Source of the DNA: an uncultured Flavobacteriaceae bacterium
Lineage (GTDB): Bacteria > Bacteroidota > Bacteroidia > Flavobacteriales > Flavobacteriaceae
Length of the DNA: 64,000 nt
Assembly: GCA_947502495.1 (NCBI GenBank)
Contig: CANNAC010000002.1
Span: forward strand, 372,001 to 436,000
Reading direction: 5' to 3'
The notes beneath the pieces were generated by a model, which was not told the DNA's origin, searched no databases, and saw nothing but the letters and a program-made list of their open reading frames with translations. Position numbers and translations under genes: made by a program. Of this stretch, positions 1 through 24,321 are shown in pieces. Each line of letters starts with the position of its first letter. The stretch's first letter is position 1.

Positions 1-353
1 ATTTGAAATCCGAAAAAATCAGAAGTACCCAAATCATCTCGTGCTGTTAGTTGCTTGTTAATTTCCATTTTATTATCCACATGAAAAACGGCTAAAACAT
101 ACAAATAGCTTTCATCGTGAAGGATTGCAATTTCCGATTTACGCTTAGAAGGTTTTCCGTTATCTGGCCGTTGTTGTATAAAATTTCCTTCTTGTAGGTG
201 TTGCTTCCAAATTGCTTCAGTTGCTTCTCCATCTATTTTAATGGTTTCGGTAGTAGGATGAATAGTAATGGTGTTTTGTGCTTTTACCGAAACAATTCCG
301 AAGAAAATAAATAGAATAAAAAAGATACGGTTGTTTTTGTTGGAGAATTGCAT
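1..353 (-). CDS. Exported CBM9-like / DUF5916-type protein, N-terminal part only
   Basis: The frame opens at an ATG at 353 and runs off the left edge, so about 117 residues are visible. Residues 1-25 are a signal peptide: a short basic start, the hydrophobic run FFILFIFFGIVS, then a VKAQ cleavage region. The mature start (IKIDGEATEAIW, later ESYLYVLAVFHVDN) has the pattern of the carbohydrate-binding family 9-like sandwich that opens Bacteroidota DUF5916 proteins, which normally continue into an outer-membrane-like barrel. Substrate and function are unknown. It is divergent from the two-component system at 617, and operator-like repeats lie upstream of both. The family call rests on pattern memory of a short N-terminus. 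Confidence 0.7.
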   Translation of the reverse strand, partial: MQFSNKNNRIFFILFIFFGIVSVKAQNTITIHPTTETIKIDGEATEAIWKQHLQEGNFIQQRPDNGKPSKRKSEIAILHDESYLYVLAVFHVDNKMEINKQLTARDDLGTSDFFGFQ

Positions 354-405
354 GCTGGTTTGTTTTTTGATTTCGGAGACAAAGATGAAACAGACCAACA
401 GATAA

Positions 406-437
406 ACAGGTTAACCCAAAGTTAAACACAGGTTAAT
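406..437. promoter_or_regulatory. Three TTAA half-sites in 11-bp phase (operator array A)
   Basis: TTAA begins at 411, 422 and 433, exactly 11 bp apart. The outer two sites are identical over nine bases (ACAGGTTAA at 406 and 428). Direct repeats at one-helical-turn spacing are the usual binding pattern of OmpR/PhoB-family regulators, and one is encoded at 2024. The array lies about 55 bp upstream of the minus-strand DUF5916-type gene and just upstream of a near -7 box (CATCTTTG, 387 to 380 on the minus strand). Binding by that regulator is inference. Confidence 0.5.
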
Positions 438-516
438 GGTTTTTTGATGTGTTTTGTATTGCTATTAACCCAAGTGAAGAAAATGAGTATTGGTAGGAAA
501 CTCGCCCATTATTAAG

Positions 517-533
517 GTTAACGTTGGGTTAAC
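517..533. promoter_or_regulatory. Two GTTAAC half-sites in 11-bp phase (operator array B)
   Basis: GTTAAC occurs at 517-522 and again at 528-533, 11 bp apart, preceded by one more TTAA at 512. The sequence and spacing match array A at 406-437. It sits 37-53 bp upstream of the -7 box at 570, the position expected for an activating OmpR-family protein, so autoregulation of the kinase/regulator operon is plausible. Confidence 0.5.
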
Positions 534-569
534 GGCATGCAGTTATACCTCTTGAACTCACATATTTGC

Positions 570-577
570 TACATTTG
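570..577 (+). promoter_or_regulatory. Putative -7 box for the histidine kinase operon
   Basis: TACATTTG matches the Bacteroidota primary-sigma consensus TAnnTTTG and would give a leader of roughly 35 nt to the ATG at 617. There is no good TTG at -33 (the nearest, at 552, is too close), which fits a promoter needing an activator bound at 517-533. Confidence 0.45.
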
Positions 578-616
578 ACGTAATAAACCAAACAATCGAT
601 TTCTCATATAGTACAC

Positions 617-2011
617 ATGAAAAACAAAATAACCATATTAATACTAGCATCTGTTTTGGGCTTAATCGCCTTATCATCGATACAAGCTTATTTAATTAGT
701 AATACCTACGAGTTAAAAAAGAAAGCTTTTATTAAAGAAACAGATGATGCTTTAGAAGGTATTCATGAGAAAAACGAACTAGATTCTTTAGGTGATGTTT
801 GGAAAGAAGATTTACGCAACCATTTAAACGATTATAAAAATAATCGCATTAGTAAAGCCGAAGTATTAAGTCGTTTCTTTATAAAAACCGACAGCCTTAA
901 CACCCTACACAAAACCTATTACGAAAAAGAATTAGAAGCTATTAATCTGGATTACGATGTTAAATTTAAACAAGAATTAACGAGTATTGTTATTATTGAA
1001 GGGTCTAAATTAGACACCATTTATCCTGTAAAAAACGAAATAAGAACTAAGATTTTTGGTACAGATTTTAAAACGAAAGATGGCCATAAAACCAACACGT
1101 CTTCTTGGTACACAGAAAGTGAGTACATACATCAAAAAGATGGAGAGATAGTAACGGATACTTATGATTTAGAGGTGAAAACCATAAATTACATTCAAAT
1201 AAAAGATTGGAAACGTATTGTATATGGCAGAATGGCTGTCTTGTTTTTTGGTTCTTTATTACTGTTTTTATTTGTTATAGGATTACTTTATTATTCTATT
1301 AAAAACTTAATTACGCAGAAAAAAATTGCCGAGATTAAAACTGATTTCATTAACAACATCACCCACGAACTTAAAACACCTTTGGCAACGTTAAGCATTG
1401 CTACAAAGAGTTTAAAAAACGAAACGATTAAGGCAAATCCGGAAGCATTTAAAAACACCCTTAATATTGTAGATCGTCAAAATGAAAGGCTTCAAAAACT
1501 AATAGATCAAGTAATGACGAATAGTTTAAGTAATGAAGATATTGTGCTTAACAAGGAGCAAGTTGTAGATACTATCTATTTTAATAATATTATAGAAGAC
1601 TTCAAATTGTCTAAACAATACAATGGGTTAACGATTAAAAACGAAATTTATGCTTCGGAAATAGTATTACGCTTAGACAAGTTTCATTTTGCAACAGCCA
1701 TTTTAAACATTTTAGAAAATGCGATTAAATATAGCATAGAACCAACAATAATAACTTTTAAAACCGAATTCAAAAATGGTAATTATTGTCTCAAAATCAC
1801 AGATAATGGTATTGGTATTTCCGAAAAAAATCAAGCACATTTATTTGACAAATTCTATCGTGTAAGCGATGGCGATGTTCATGATGTAAAAGGCTTAGGA
1901 CTTGGATTATATTACACCAATCAAATTATTAAAGCACATCAAGGAAACATTACTATTCAAAGCGAATTGCAAAAAGGAAGCACATTTACAATTAAAATAC
2001 CAGTAAACTAA
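617..2011 (+). CDS. Membrane-bound sensor histidine kinase
   Basis: This 464-residue protein autophosphorylates and passes phosphate to a response regulator, presumably the product of the gene 12 bp downstream. Two membrane segments (about 5-27 and 204-227) enclose a periplasmic sensor region of about 175 residues that matches no sensor domain I can name. The dimerisation helix carries NNITHELKTPLATLS with His250 as the phosphoacceptor. The ATPase domain has an N box (NILENAIKYS), a G1 box (DNGIGIS), an F-box-like LFDKFYR and a G2 box (GLGLGLYYT), so it looks active. The stimulus is unknown. The secreted coiled-coil gene at 2814 suggests an envelope signal, but that is inference. Confidence 0.92.
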   Translation: MKNKITILILASVLGLIALSSIQAYLISNTYELKKKAFIKETDDALEGIHEKNELDSLGDVWKEDLRNHLNDYKNNRISKAEVLSRFFIKTDSLNTLHKTYYEKELEAINLDYDVKFKQELTSIVIIEGSKLDTIYPVKNEIRTKIFGTDFKTKDGHKTNTSSWYTESEYIHQKDGEIVTDTYDLEVKTINYIQIKDWKRIVYGRMAVLFFGSLLLFLFVIGLLYYSIKNLITQKKIAEIKTDFINNITHELKTPLATLSIATKSLKNETIKANPEAFKNTLNIVDRQNERLQKLIDQVMTNSLSNEDIVLNKEQVVDTIYFNNIIEDFKLSKQYNGLTIKNEIYASEIVLRLDKFHFATAILNILENAIKYSIEPTIITFKTEFKNGNYCLKITDNGIGISEKNQAHLFDKFYRVSDGDVHDVKGLGLGLYYTNQIIKAHQGNITIQSELQKGSTFTIKIPVN

Positions 2012-21147: not shown

Positions 21148-22308
21148 TTATAAAGTACCTCTTTTTGCTTGTTCTCTTTCAATAGACTCAAAAAGTGCTT
21201 TAAAATTTCCTGCTCCAAAACCTTTAGCTCCCATTCTTTGAATAATCTCAAAAAATAAGGTTGGCCTATCTTCGACTGGTTTTGTAAAGATTTGTAGTAA
21301 ATAGCCTTCTTCATCTGCATCAATCATGATACCTAAACCTTTTAACTTTTCGATATCTTCTCTTAATTCGTGGCTAAATTCTTCTAGTCTTCCCGGTACA
21401 GATCTATAATATTCGTCTGGTGGTGTGGATAGAAATTCTACACCATTCGCTCTTAATTGCGAAACGGTTTTAATAATATCGTCTGTTGCAACCGCTATAT
21501 GTTGTACTCCTGCGCCTTCGTAAAAGTCTAAATACTCTTCAATTTGCGAGCGTTTTTTTCCTTCTGCAGGTTCGTTAATTGGAAATTTAATTCTACCGTT
21601 TCCGTTAGACATTACTTTACTCATTAATGCCGAATATTCGGTGTGTATTTGTTTATCATCAAAGGATAAGAAATTTTCAAATCCCATCACATCTTCATAC
21701 CATTTTACCCAAACATCCATTTGGTTCCAACCTACATTACCAACCATGTGGTCAATATATTTTAATCCAGCAGCTGGCGGATTGTAATCGGATTCCCACT
21801 TCTCGAAACCTGGTAAAAATGCACCATTGTAATTTTTACGCTCTACAAACATGTGTACCGTTTCGCCGTAGGTATAAATTCCTGCACGAATAACTTCACC
21901 ATGCTCATCTGTTTCCACGGTTGGTTCCATATAGGATTTTGCGCCTCTAGACATGGTTTCTTCATAGGCACTTTTTGCATCTTCTACCCAAAGCGCAACT
22001 ATTTTCACACCATCACCATGTTTTACAATATGATCGTTTATTGGAGACTTGCTATTTAAAGGTGTGGTTAGCATCAACTTGATTTTGTCTTGTGTTAACA
22101 CATAGCTTACCGAATCTTTAGATCCTGTTTCTAAACCTTTGTATGCATGCGATTGAAAACCGAATGCTGTTTTATAAAAGTGTGCAGCTTGTTTTGCATT
22201 ACCAACGTAAAACTCTACATAATCTGTTCCTAGAAGTGGAAGGAAGTCTTGTGCTCCTTCAAATATTTTTTCTAAACCGTAGTTTACTGATTTTATTTCT
22301 TTTGCCAT
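21148..22308 (-). CDS. hpd: 4-hydroxyphenylpyruvate dioxygenase
   Basis: This Fe(II) enzyme converts 4-hydroxyphenylpyruvate to homogentisate in tyrosine breakdown. The 386-residue protein has two vicinal-oxygen-chelate halves. Iron-binding His and Glu residues fall in KYIDHMVGNV, GVQHIAVATDDI and LFFEIIQRMGAKGFGAGNFKALFESIEREQ, the last being the family's C-terminal signature. hmgA, the next step, lies 625 bp upstream on the same strand, with one small membrane-protein gene and an RNA-like element between. Confidence 0.96.
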   Translation of the reverse strand: MAKEIKSVNYGLEKIFEGAQDFLPLLGTDYVEFYVGNAKQAAHFYKTAFGFQSHAYKGLETGSKDSVSYVLTQDKIKLMLTTPLNSKSPINDHIVKHGDGVKIVALWVEDAKSAYEETMSRGAKSYMEPTVETDEHGEVIRAGIYTYGETVHMFVERKNYNGAFLPGFEKWESDYNPPAAGLKYIDHMVGNVGWNQMDVWVKWYEDVMGFENFLSFDDKQIHTEYSALMSKVMSNGNGRIKFPINEPAEGKKRSQIEEYLDFYEGAGVQHIAVATDDIIKTVSQLRANGVEFLSTPPDEYYRSVPGRLEEFSHELREDIEKLKGLGIMIDADEEGYLLQIFTKPVEDRPTLFFEIIQRMGAKGFGAGNFKALFESIEREQAKRGTL

Positions 22309-22358
22309 TCTTAGATAATTTTAATGTTTGTTTAAGCTATTTGCTTGTATAAATGTTT

Positions 22359-22428
22359 AGCCCTGATTGCAGTGACATCCTTTTTTGTTTTTTTTCAAAA
22401 AAGATATAACGGAAAGCAGGAAATAGCT
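22359..22428 (+). ncRNA. Flavo-1-like structured RNA (strand uncertain)
   Basis: A compact two-stem structure fills the hpd upstream region. The outer stem pairs AGC (22359-22361) with GCT (22426-22428) and CCTG (22362-22365) with CAGG (22417-22420). The inner stem pairs CTTTTTTG (22380-22387) with CAAAAAAG (22396-22403), extended by AT/AT across a bulged C. Between the stems are the purine-rich strands ATTGCAGTGAC and ATAACGGAAAG, which I recall as the conserved core of the Flavo-1 RNA family, of unknown function. I chose the plus strand from memory of that consensus; on it, the RNA is antisense to the neighbouring gene direction. Confidence 0.6.
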
Positions 22429-22442
22429 TCTAATACTTATTT

Positions 22443-22919
22443 TTAGTCTTCTGTTCTGACTATTTCTTTATACTTTTTTATCGAAACGGAATCTATTATA
22501 ATAGAATCGGTTTCTATTTCGAACAAATCTTCTTCTTGATAATTTAAAGAATCGTTTTCCCATTCGTAATACGAATCGTCTTCTTTATCACCATAAGCAT
22601 CCATTAAGATGGTAGAGATAAGCACGCCATAAATCATGAAATATGCTACATATAACATAGTAATGATTCCGCTTACCGCTACAGCCACGATATTTAAAAT
22701 TTTAGCGTTATTTACATTGGTGTAACTGAAGCTAGAATATACGTCTGGATTTTCTCTAAATAGGCGTATACTTTTGTTTGCCGAAACTAAACCTATAATA
22801 CTTAAGGCTAAGGAAACTATGGAAAAAAACCCACAGCAGCAACCTAAAAATAAAACAACTAGCGCTATAATTCCTAATGTCATTGCAGATGAATCTGCGG
22901 GTAATCTATTTTGATTCAT
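22443..22919 (-). CDS. CCC-motif small membrane protein (DUF4190/CD225-like)
   Basis: The 158-residue protein has a first membrane segment with a triple cysteine (GCCCG, Cys27-29), a cytoplasmic loop ending in a conserved-looking NNAKILNIVAVAVSGI, and a second segment to about residue 93. The tail is very acidic (DAYGDKEDDSYYEW, then EEDLFEIETDS). The layout matches the DUF4190 / dispanin-like proteins common in Bacteroidota, whose function is not established. It starts 14 bp after the hmgA stop, so it is transcribed with it. Confidence 0.82.
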   Translation of the reverse strand: MNQNRLPADSSAMTLGIIALVVLFLGCCCGFFSIVSLALSIIGLVSANKSIRLFRENPDVYSSFSYTNVNNAKILNIVAVAVSGIITMLYVAYFMIYGVLISTILMDAYGDKEDDSYYEWENDSLNYQEEDLFEIETDSIIIDSVSIKKYKEIVRTED

Positions 22920-22933
22920 TAATTTTCAATGTT

Positions 22934-24091
22934 TTACTCTAACCAGGATTTTAGGTATTCTTCGTCGGCAATTTCCATTGCTTCTTGGGTAACCATTAAT
23001 GGTTTAAAAGTATCTACCATTACTGCAAGCTCATCGGTTTTTGTTTTACCAATACTACGTTCTGTTGCTCCTGGGTGCGGACCGTGAGGTATTCCTGCTG
23101 GGTGTAAACTTATATGTCCGGCATCGATATCATTACGACTCATAAAATCGCCATCGACATAGTATAAAACCTCATCACTATCTATATTACTATGATTGTA
23201 AGGTGCTGGAATAGAATCCGGATGATAGTCATACAATCTAGGCACAAAACTACAAACTACAAATGCGTCTGTTTCAAAAGTTTGATGCACTGGAGGCGGT
23301 TGATGAATACGCCCGGTAATGGGTTCAAAATCATGAATAGAAAGCGCATACGGATAATTATAGCCGTCATAGCCGACCACATCAAAAGGATGTGTTGCGT
23401 AGACCATTTCGAAAATATCGTCTTGCTTTTTCACCTTAATGATAAAATCTCCTTTTTCATTATGTGTTTCCAATTCTTGTGGCTGACGAATATCACGCTC
23501 ACAAAACGGCGAATGCTCTAATAGTTGTCCGAACCAATTTCTATATCGTTTTGGCGTATAAATAGGTCTTTTAGATTCTACGATAAACAATCTATTATCT
23601 TCGGTATCGAAGTCCATTTTATAAATAACACCTCGTGGCACTAAGAGATAATCTCCATATTTAAAATCTAGATTACCAAGATGTGTTCTTAGTTTCCCGG
23701 TTCCTTTATGAATAAAAATTAACTCGTCTGCATCTGTATTTTTATAAAAATAATCTTGTGTAGCTTGTTTTGGTGCAGCAAGAATTATGGTACAATCGCT
23801 ATTGGTAAGTACTGCTTTTCGACTTTCTAAATAGTCCATTTCTGGTTTTATTTGAAACCCTCGAAAACGATACGATTGTATATGATTGGCCTTTGCTATT
23901 TTTGGCGCAACGCTGTATTGCTTTCTTATTTCTTTTACCTGTGTTGGTCTATGTTCGTGGTATGAATTTGTAGACATACCGTCAAAACCGATGGTACCAA
24001 ATAATTGTTCGGCATATAAAGACCCATCTGGTTTTCTAAATTGCGTGTGTCTTTTAGGTGGAATTTTTCCTAGTTTATGATAAAATGGCAT
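22934..24091 (-). CDS. hmgA: Homogentisate 1,2-dioxygenase
   Basis: It opens homogentisate to maleylacetoacetate, the ring-cleaving step of tyrosine catabolism, using Fe(II) in a cupin fold. I use the ATG at 24091 (MPFYHKLGKIPPKRHTQFRKPDG), giving 385 residues. Characteristic stretches are AEQLFGTIGFDGMSTNSYHEHRP, YLLVPRGVIYKMDFD and ISLHPAGIPHGPHPG, which holds metal-binding and active-site His residues. It heads the hmgA / CCC-protein / hpd group. Fumarylacetoacetate hydrolase is not in the window. Confidence 0.94.
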   Translation of the reverse strand: MPFYHKLGKIPPKRHTQFRKPDGSLYAEQLFGTIGFDGMSTNSYHEHRPTQVKEIRKQYSVAPKIAKANHIQSYRFRGFQIKPEMDYLESRKAVLTNSDCTIILAAPKQATQDYFYKNTDADELIFIHKGTGKLRTHLGNLDFKYGDYLLVPRGVIYKMDFDTEDNRLFIVESKRPIYTPKRYRNWFGQLLEHSPFCERDIRQPQELETHNEKGDFIIKVKKQDDIFEMVYATHPFDVVGYDGYNYPYALSIHDFEPITGRIHQPPPVHQTFETDAFVVCSFVPRLYDYHPDSIPAPYNHSNIDSDEVLYYVDGDFMSRNDIDAGHISLHPAGIPHGPHPGATERSIGKTKTDELAVMVDTFKPLMVTQEAMEIADEEYLKSWLE

Positions 24092-24321
24092 TCTTTTAAA
24101 ATTTAAAGTTATTACTACTTCTTTTAAAATGGAATAAAACAATGCACGATCATTCTGGATTTCTTTTCTGAAGAAATTTTAAAAAGATTAATATGTCTTG
24201 CCAAAATGGTTTCATACTTATTGTTTTTCAATGCTCACATGTAACATACATTTCCTCAGTATCGAAACTTTGTTATGAATGGTTCATGTATTACAAATAT
24301 CGTGAAAATTTTTGAGACTTC

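Follow-up and report, generated by a model that had tools for sequence, protein, structure and literature searches.

Flavo-1 upstream of hpd as one core of a modular hairpin repeat of flavobacteria that probably evolves by core replacement

Does a structured element beside a gene of tyrosine degradation encode an RNA that serves this gene, or is it a local copy of something that belongs to the genome at large? We studied this question in a stretch of 64,000 nt (the window) from an uncultured Flavobacteriaceae bacterium, for which an initial annotation had guessed a Flavo-1-like RNA at 22359-22428, between hpd and the gene of a CCC-motif protein. Among all families of Rfam release 15, Flavo-1 (RF01705) yields the sole gathering-threshold match across the whole window (22355-22427, plus strand, 72.7 bits vs. 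a cut-off of 42, E 4.5e-14), with the full model (1-76) aligned and both internal loops and consensus pairs kept. That is, by covariance-model score the element is a member of RF01705: the family was guessed correctly, the covariance-model search that the annotation had proposed finds it on the plus strand, and the guessed span is only a few bases off. Its position between two minus-strand genes is also right. The start codon of hpd (4-hydroxyphenylpyruvate dioxygenase, 21148-22308, minus strand; TIGR01263, 450.4 bits) adjoins the element, and so does, on its 3' side, the end of the gene of the CCC-motif membrane protein (22443-22919, minus strand; NF040945, 74.1 bits). Beyond the latter lies a diverged gene of the homogentisate 1,2-dioxygenase (hmgA) family (22934-24142, minus strand; PF20510, 52.5 bits), for which the TIGR01015 score of 74.1 bits is far under the cut-off of 510.75.

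The fold differs from the annotated one, i.e., instead of two separate stems the Rfam model describes a single long hairpin with several internal loops. For the 73 bases of the plus strand, the folding energy hardly beats that of shuffled sequences (z -0.70), while the minus strand reaches z -2.23, such that minimum energy prefers the minus strand and folding energy alone would have missed the element. In the minus-strand fold, a 9-bp inverted repeat around the element is paired, namely AAGCTATTT (22334-22342) with AAATAGCTT (22421-22429, both given on the plus strand).

We then asked how often such elements occur. The window's genome (G000, 4.07 Mb) contains at least 46 scattered Flavo-1 matches (E <= 0.001), of which 39 exceed the cut-off; among its six congeners (G001-G006) the numbers are at least 41, 45, 30, 42, 25 and 9. 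Flavo-1 is present in 20 of the 31 genomes searched (own genome included) and is patchy within a sample of the phylum, where 22/148 genomes, again including the own one, carry it under stricter filters. Like REP sequences, Flavo-1 is a mostly extragenic hairpin dispersed in many copies.

Reading these copies, we find a modular anatomy: conserved outer arms surround an inner hairpin, the core, for which we distinguish at least three types; type I is Rfam's Flavo-1. Cores of type II follow approximately TTTGTTKGAGCTC...GAGCGA, those of the rarer type III approximately GTTAGCTTTTGG...CCAAAACTAGTAG (few copies: L161, L132, L156, L346). In copies read from G000 and G001, the unit of the genus consists of GCGTTA, a hairpin, a second hairpin of variable sequence and TAACGC. 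Judging by sequence, GCGTTA and TAACGC can close such a unit to a three-way junction. Most copies read of the window's genus have these arms; the window copy and few others, together with copies printed from four other genomes, have arms of a class A instead (TAGCC...GGAAATAGCTTC). The closing pairs of the hairpin covary (AGG/CCT, GCG/CGC, GGG/CCC, GTG/CAC), as do the N pairs of its internal loop GATNG/GANAGC, and in nearly all of 68 copies the first internal loop places GNA opposite GNA.

Type II cores at the hpd loci of G001, G002, G004, G005, G011 and G012 give no Rfam match at E 0.01. We built a type II covariance model (R1) from 24 copies, which matches 25 times in G000, 24-30 times in five congeners and 10 times in the sixth. 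In G000, the genome covered by the overlap comparison, none of the 25 R1 matches overlaps any of the 46 Flavo-1 matches. An exception elsewhere is L213, which is of type II, has a long T/A stem and also scores 49 bits as Flavo-1. Within the phylum sample, R1 is found in 9/148 genomes and 8 of these 9 also carry Flavo-1 (Fisher 6e-7); since core typing was done by regular expression and by eye and the Rfam model scores L213, this co-occurrence may in genomes with few copies partly be one element counted twice. The pattern GAGGNACGA, run over seven genomes, also matches outside the fetched elements, and no element count was taken from it.

Further small repeats were seen in and around the elements. 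On contig C3 of G000, the loop pattern occurs three times within 1 kb (478519-479485) adjoining element L160, and self-matches suggest a tandem repeat. A palindrome GTTCGAGTG...GTATCGAGAAC, or one close to it, is nested in the core loops of several type I copies (L003, L014, L022, L024, L149, L167). Furthermore, a 20-bp palindrome, CCTGCCTGCCGGCAGGCAGG or a close variant, occurs within hairpin elements in one species, whereas the orthologous copy lacks it (present/absent pairs L141/L178, L166/L189, L350/L016, L353/L146 and L142/L401), where its absence is clean or nearly so and no obvious target duplication is visible. This palindrome may represent a second micro-element with these hairpins as its insertion sites; the window holds none of its type.

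What happens to a given element over time can be read from orthologous sites. Matching of flanks pairs 45 sites between G000 and G001. For the 37 of these with both flanks matched (eight pairs matched on one flank only are left out), we observe 21 sites with type I on both sides, 6 with type II, 1 with type III, 1 with type I vs. an unclear core and 8 with type I vs. type II. Gene order located 10 of the 15 unpaired G000 elements in G001, while the other five stay outside the count. Among these ten sites, six have the same type (in one of them the loop alone is replaced), three differ in type (I-II, I-III and III-I, G000 vs. G001) and one is element-free in G001. In total, the core type differs at 11/47 orthologous sites. 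At one and the same orthologous site, the same arms can enclose different core types in different genomes. For the closer pair G004/G001, 1/21 sites typed on both sides differs; of the 32 elements examined, 3 lacked a flank match and 8 escaped the regular expression in G001. The loop variant GAGGYACGA, found in seven G000 copies and one G001 copy of the fetched stretches, behaves alike: for six of the seven, the G001 counterpart is of type II (3), of type III (1) or of type I with another loop (2). At the L010 site, we find type I in G000, type II in G004 (one flank matched) and no element in G001, and the second hairpin is identical in the type II copy of G004 and the type I copy of G000.

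The hpd site itself is a case of this kind. By comparison of the site among species, the 5' outer arm TAGCCCTGATTG (22358-22369, plus strand) is the same in the congeners' type II elements, with types taken from the models, and the 3' outer arm GAAAGCAGGAAATAGCTTCTAATA (22412-22435, plus strand) is, by eye, common to G001, G002, G004 and G005. Between these arms, which are identical in G000 and these four genomes, the inner hairpin differs (22370-22411, plus strand; read by eye): the window and G003 have a type I core here, G001, G002, G004 and G005 one of type II. The hpd copies of G002, G004 and G005 belong to the R1 training set, such that the independent basis of this typing is the reading by eye and the missing Flavo-1 match; G011 and G012, from other genera and outside the training set, have type II as well. 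G006, the seventh genome of the genus, has neither core at its hpd locus.

Among 80 named hpd loci, the models find an upstream element in 20, always on the antisense strand, and neither model finds one upstream in the other 60. Twelve of the 20 are of type I and seven of type II; L206, L229 and L238 either belong to the R1 training set or are identical to copies in it. Both models match L213, which we read as type II. Distances to hpd reach about 1.5 kb (L209) and about 0.6 kb (L225, L240). We placed these states on an hpd tree of 74 rows, which comprise the window, ten loci from genome search and 63 of the 80 named ones, with G003 and G004 entered twice each; the 17 omitted loci have no upstream model match, and L209, whose Flavo-1 match lies 1.5 kb upstream, is labelled as having no element. 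On this tree, which comes from a short search and has 27 open forks, the group of window and G003 (96) is nested within type II relatives. The 27 rows with an element require at least seven changes between types I and II, and the tree as a whole requires at least 16 gains or losses. Given the nesting, the window copy is most simply explained by replacement of a type II core by type I in an ancestor common to the window and G003.

Gene order at the locus also varies. In the window and in G003, the CCC-motif gene (22443-22919) separates hpd from the hmgA-like gene, while in G001, G002, G004 and G005 the end of the hmgA-like gene directly adjoins the element. The clade in which the CCC-motif gene lies there is also the one with the type I core.

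Can an RNA that serves hpd account for these data? The annotation had favoured an independent RNA in antisense orientation beside the tyrosine-degradation genes, and a small RNA of this kind could control hpd or its pathway. The constant antisense strand of the 20 upstream elements would fit such a role. With at least 46 matches scattered over G000, a core that is not kept at the hpd site and three quarters of the named loci devoid of an upstream element, this tie is unsupported, and the element is not conserved at the locus as a gene would be. Furthermore, a pattern scan of 22200-22600 with E. coli-type consensus finds neither a promoter-like nor a terminator-like site on the plus strand and one promoter-like site on the minus strand, a weak criterion given that promoters of Bacteroidota differ. 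In addition, in the accessible part of a transcript map of Flavobacterium psychrophilum, Flavo-1 matches lie sense and antisense to transcribed regions alike and many lie outside them (PMC9723704). Taken together, we regard control of hpd by an antisense RNA as highly improbable, and no role for hpd is needed to explain the element.

Deviating base pairs are informative on the question which strand folds. Over 131 distinct type I copies from the fetched loci, with six variable pairs each, we count 765/786 Watson-Crick pairs, 13 G-T, 1 A-C and 7 others; as only copies with at least 4/6 Watson-Crick pairs were kept and the best parse was taken, the Watson-Crick figure is inflated, while the balance of G-T and A-C is not shifted towards G-T by this procedure. 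For type II, we counted four pairs in 28 copies and obtained 101 Watson-Crick pairs, 3 G-T, 0 A-C and 8 others. Pooling both types results in 16 G-T vs. 1 A-C (p 0.0003, which is optimistic because the copies are related and not independent). On the other side stand the minimum-energy preference for the minus strand and the 24-copy type II alignment, whose 13 predicted pairs include 3 A-C cells next to 19 G-U cells (12 of them at one pair). Since deviating pairs are mostly G-T and rarely A-C, the Flavo-1 strand is the likelier folding strand, be it as RNA or as single-stranded DNA.

The 97% pairing could alternatively mean selection on an RNA. It would then be a cis-acting structured RNA of untranslated regions or intergenic stretches, e.g., a protein-binding or mRNA-stability element, with the core types as alternative versions of one binding site. 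Such an RNA would explain the near-perfect covariation and the tolerance of G-T on one strand; the GNA/GNA loop would suit sheared G-A pairs on the folding strand, many copies of the window's genus lie near stop codons, and several 5' transcribed regions of F. psychrophilum coincide with Flavo-1 matches in the part of the transcript map at hand (PMC9723704). The orientation of the copies argues against it. For the 113 elements of G000 and G001, relative to the Flavo-1 strand, 58 have both neighbours antisense, 22 are convergent, 19 have both sense, 3 are divergent, 8 lie inside ORFs and 3 have no neighbour, counted with simple ORF calling and with many sites common to both genomes; in G000 alone, 28 both-antisense copies face 11 both-sense ones (p 0.009). 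In this genus, the folding strand is mostly antisense to the gene whose stop adjoins. Orientation is mixed in 60 copies from four other genomes (25 both-antisense, 14 both-sense, 11 divergent, 7 convergent, 3 inside ORFs; loci above 3,200 bases, i.e., two of G097 and one of G022, are omitted), where the gene on the 3' side is antisense to 34 and sense to 26 copies (p 0.37). Considering also that the E. coli-type scan shows no terminator pattern at the window copy, we consider a structured RNA in cis unlikely. At the same time, the bias within the genus is more than a neutral repeat would need and counts against such a repeat. A replication-strand bias on G001 was also considered and dropped, as skew is confounded with gene direction.

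If the repeat is a DNA element, what moves it? A non-autonomous element whose hairpin is recognised by a dedicated transposase, be it HUH/RAYT or a different enzyme, would be in line with dispersed copies, patchy distribution, REP-like hairpin anatomy and the presence/absence difference at the L010 site. For a comparison with MITEs, which have terminal inverted repeats and a target-site duplication, the observations are inverted GCGTTA/TAACGC ends and, at the one empty site read closely, that of L010 in G001, diverged flanks. The enzyme side speaks against a transposase. Eight of the 20 genomes with Flavo-1 that we searched give no PF01797 match at E 0.001. Among 55 Y1 matches (2 in G000, 53 elsewhere) we examined 32 loci with 1.5 kb on either side: no Flavo-1 appears in the 20 of them scanned with Rfam, and a regular-expression scan of all 32 gives three halves, one of type II and two degenerate. 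A Y1/RAYT partnership is thus unsupported by both the PF01797 distribution and the locus scans. Orphan 5' halves, as expected from split autonomous elements, are not in excess in G000 (5 unplaced out of 37 vs. 6 in a reversed-pattern control), no target duplication was seen, and most paired sites occur in more than one species. We accordingly hold movement by a dedicated transposase to be quite unlikely. An integron attC reading, prompted by the GCGTTA ends, was dropped because the core sites in the element presumably point the wrong way.

The Y1 loci of G000 show features of their own. Near both Y1 genes lie palindromic repeats that differ from each other and, by eye, are unlike Flavo-1 (L031 700-1300 and 1920-2100; L032 1300-1950). 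In L032, a type II copy lies at a distance of about 1.4 kb from the Y1 gene; we attribute this to chance. In the same locus (352-1866, minus strand, contig C3), the Y1 transposase-like domain runs on in one open frame into sequence that we take to resemble coproporphyrinogen oxidase HemF; a fusion or an overlooked start could explain this.

On balance, the element is probably one copy of a dispersed, mostly intergenic flavobacterial hairpin repeat that acts at the DNA level and evolves by core replacement. Since no mobilising enzyme was found within the family searched (PF01797/Y1), conversion-like copying via the common arms is our preferred mechanism. Once single-stranded during replication or repair, the Flavo-1 strand would fold; the folded hairpin may stall the fork or may be cut, and repair could then copy a core from another genomic copy via the short common arms. 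In this way, cores would spread by replacement at sites that stay in place and keep their orientation. We infer such copying between sites from sequence comparison; a base-for-base donor match was obtained for none of the replaced cores. A related scheme, in which hairpin slots are fixed and a dedicated arm-reading enzyme actively exchanges single-stranded cores, with Flavo-1 as one of several cassettes, seems very doubtful to us.

The distinction matters for how Flavo-1 is used. Rfam catalogues it as a small-RNA gene, and the sources searched, as far as their text is accessible, give no function. If Flavo-1 is instead the core of an exchangeable DNA hairpin repeat, Flavo-1 counts do not number RNA genes, the catalogue has missed a sibling core, and looking for ligands or mRNA targets is misdirected. 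Core swaps at fixed sites would moreover provide a natural assay for the copying of hairpin DNA between genomic places.

Finally, we compared the repeat with known systems. Over the full model, the window copy matches Flavo-1 (Weinberg et al. 2010) in sequence and structure, and differs from the catalogued family in that Flavo-1 is here one core type of a larger repeat and is exchanged at hpd loci with a core that Rfam does not match. In the accessible text of the respective sources, a table lists Flavo-1 as RNA (y) and as cis-regulatory (n) (PMC2864571), and a review counts it among abundant sRNA families (PMC9029176). In the openly searchable literature on Flavo-1/RF01705 and on flavobacterial intergenic repeats, we came across no description of core exchange or of a type II core. 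By score, the element is Flavo-1; in kind, it is a core of a modular hairpin repeat of flavobacteria. Gene conversion in the evolution of REP sequences was reportedly raised in a 1988 review by Higgins et al., in the form of a question in its title. REP/RAYT palindromes are, as far as the accessible text describes them, short dispersed extragenic hairpins with patchy occurrence among species as well (PMC3733652, PMC6006769). In contrast to REP, the Flavo-1 repeat is longer and has conserved internal loops, swappable cores and, in this genus, a three-way junction as a possible fold; we do not file it under REP/RAYT because a Y1 transposase partner was tested for and not found in the genomes and loci examined. 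Pneumococcal BOX is, according to the accessible portion of its description, also a modular dispersed repeat with a predicted stem-loop and variable inner modules, varies chiefly in the number of boxB units and reportedly causes target duplications (PMC3049150). Unlike BOX, the Flavo-1 repeat swaps one core for another and shows no duplication. By analogy, it would nevertheless work most like REP or BOX repeats.
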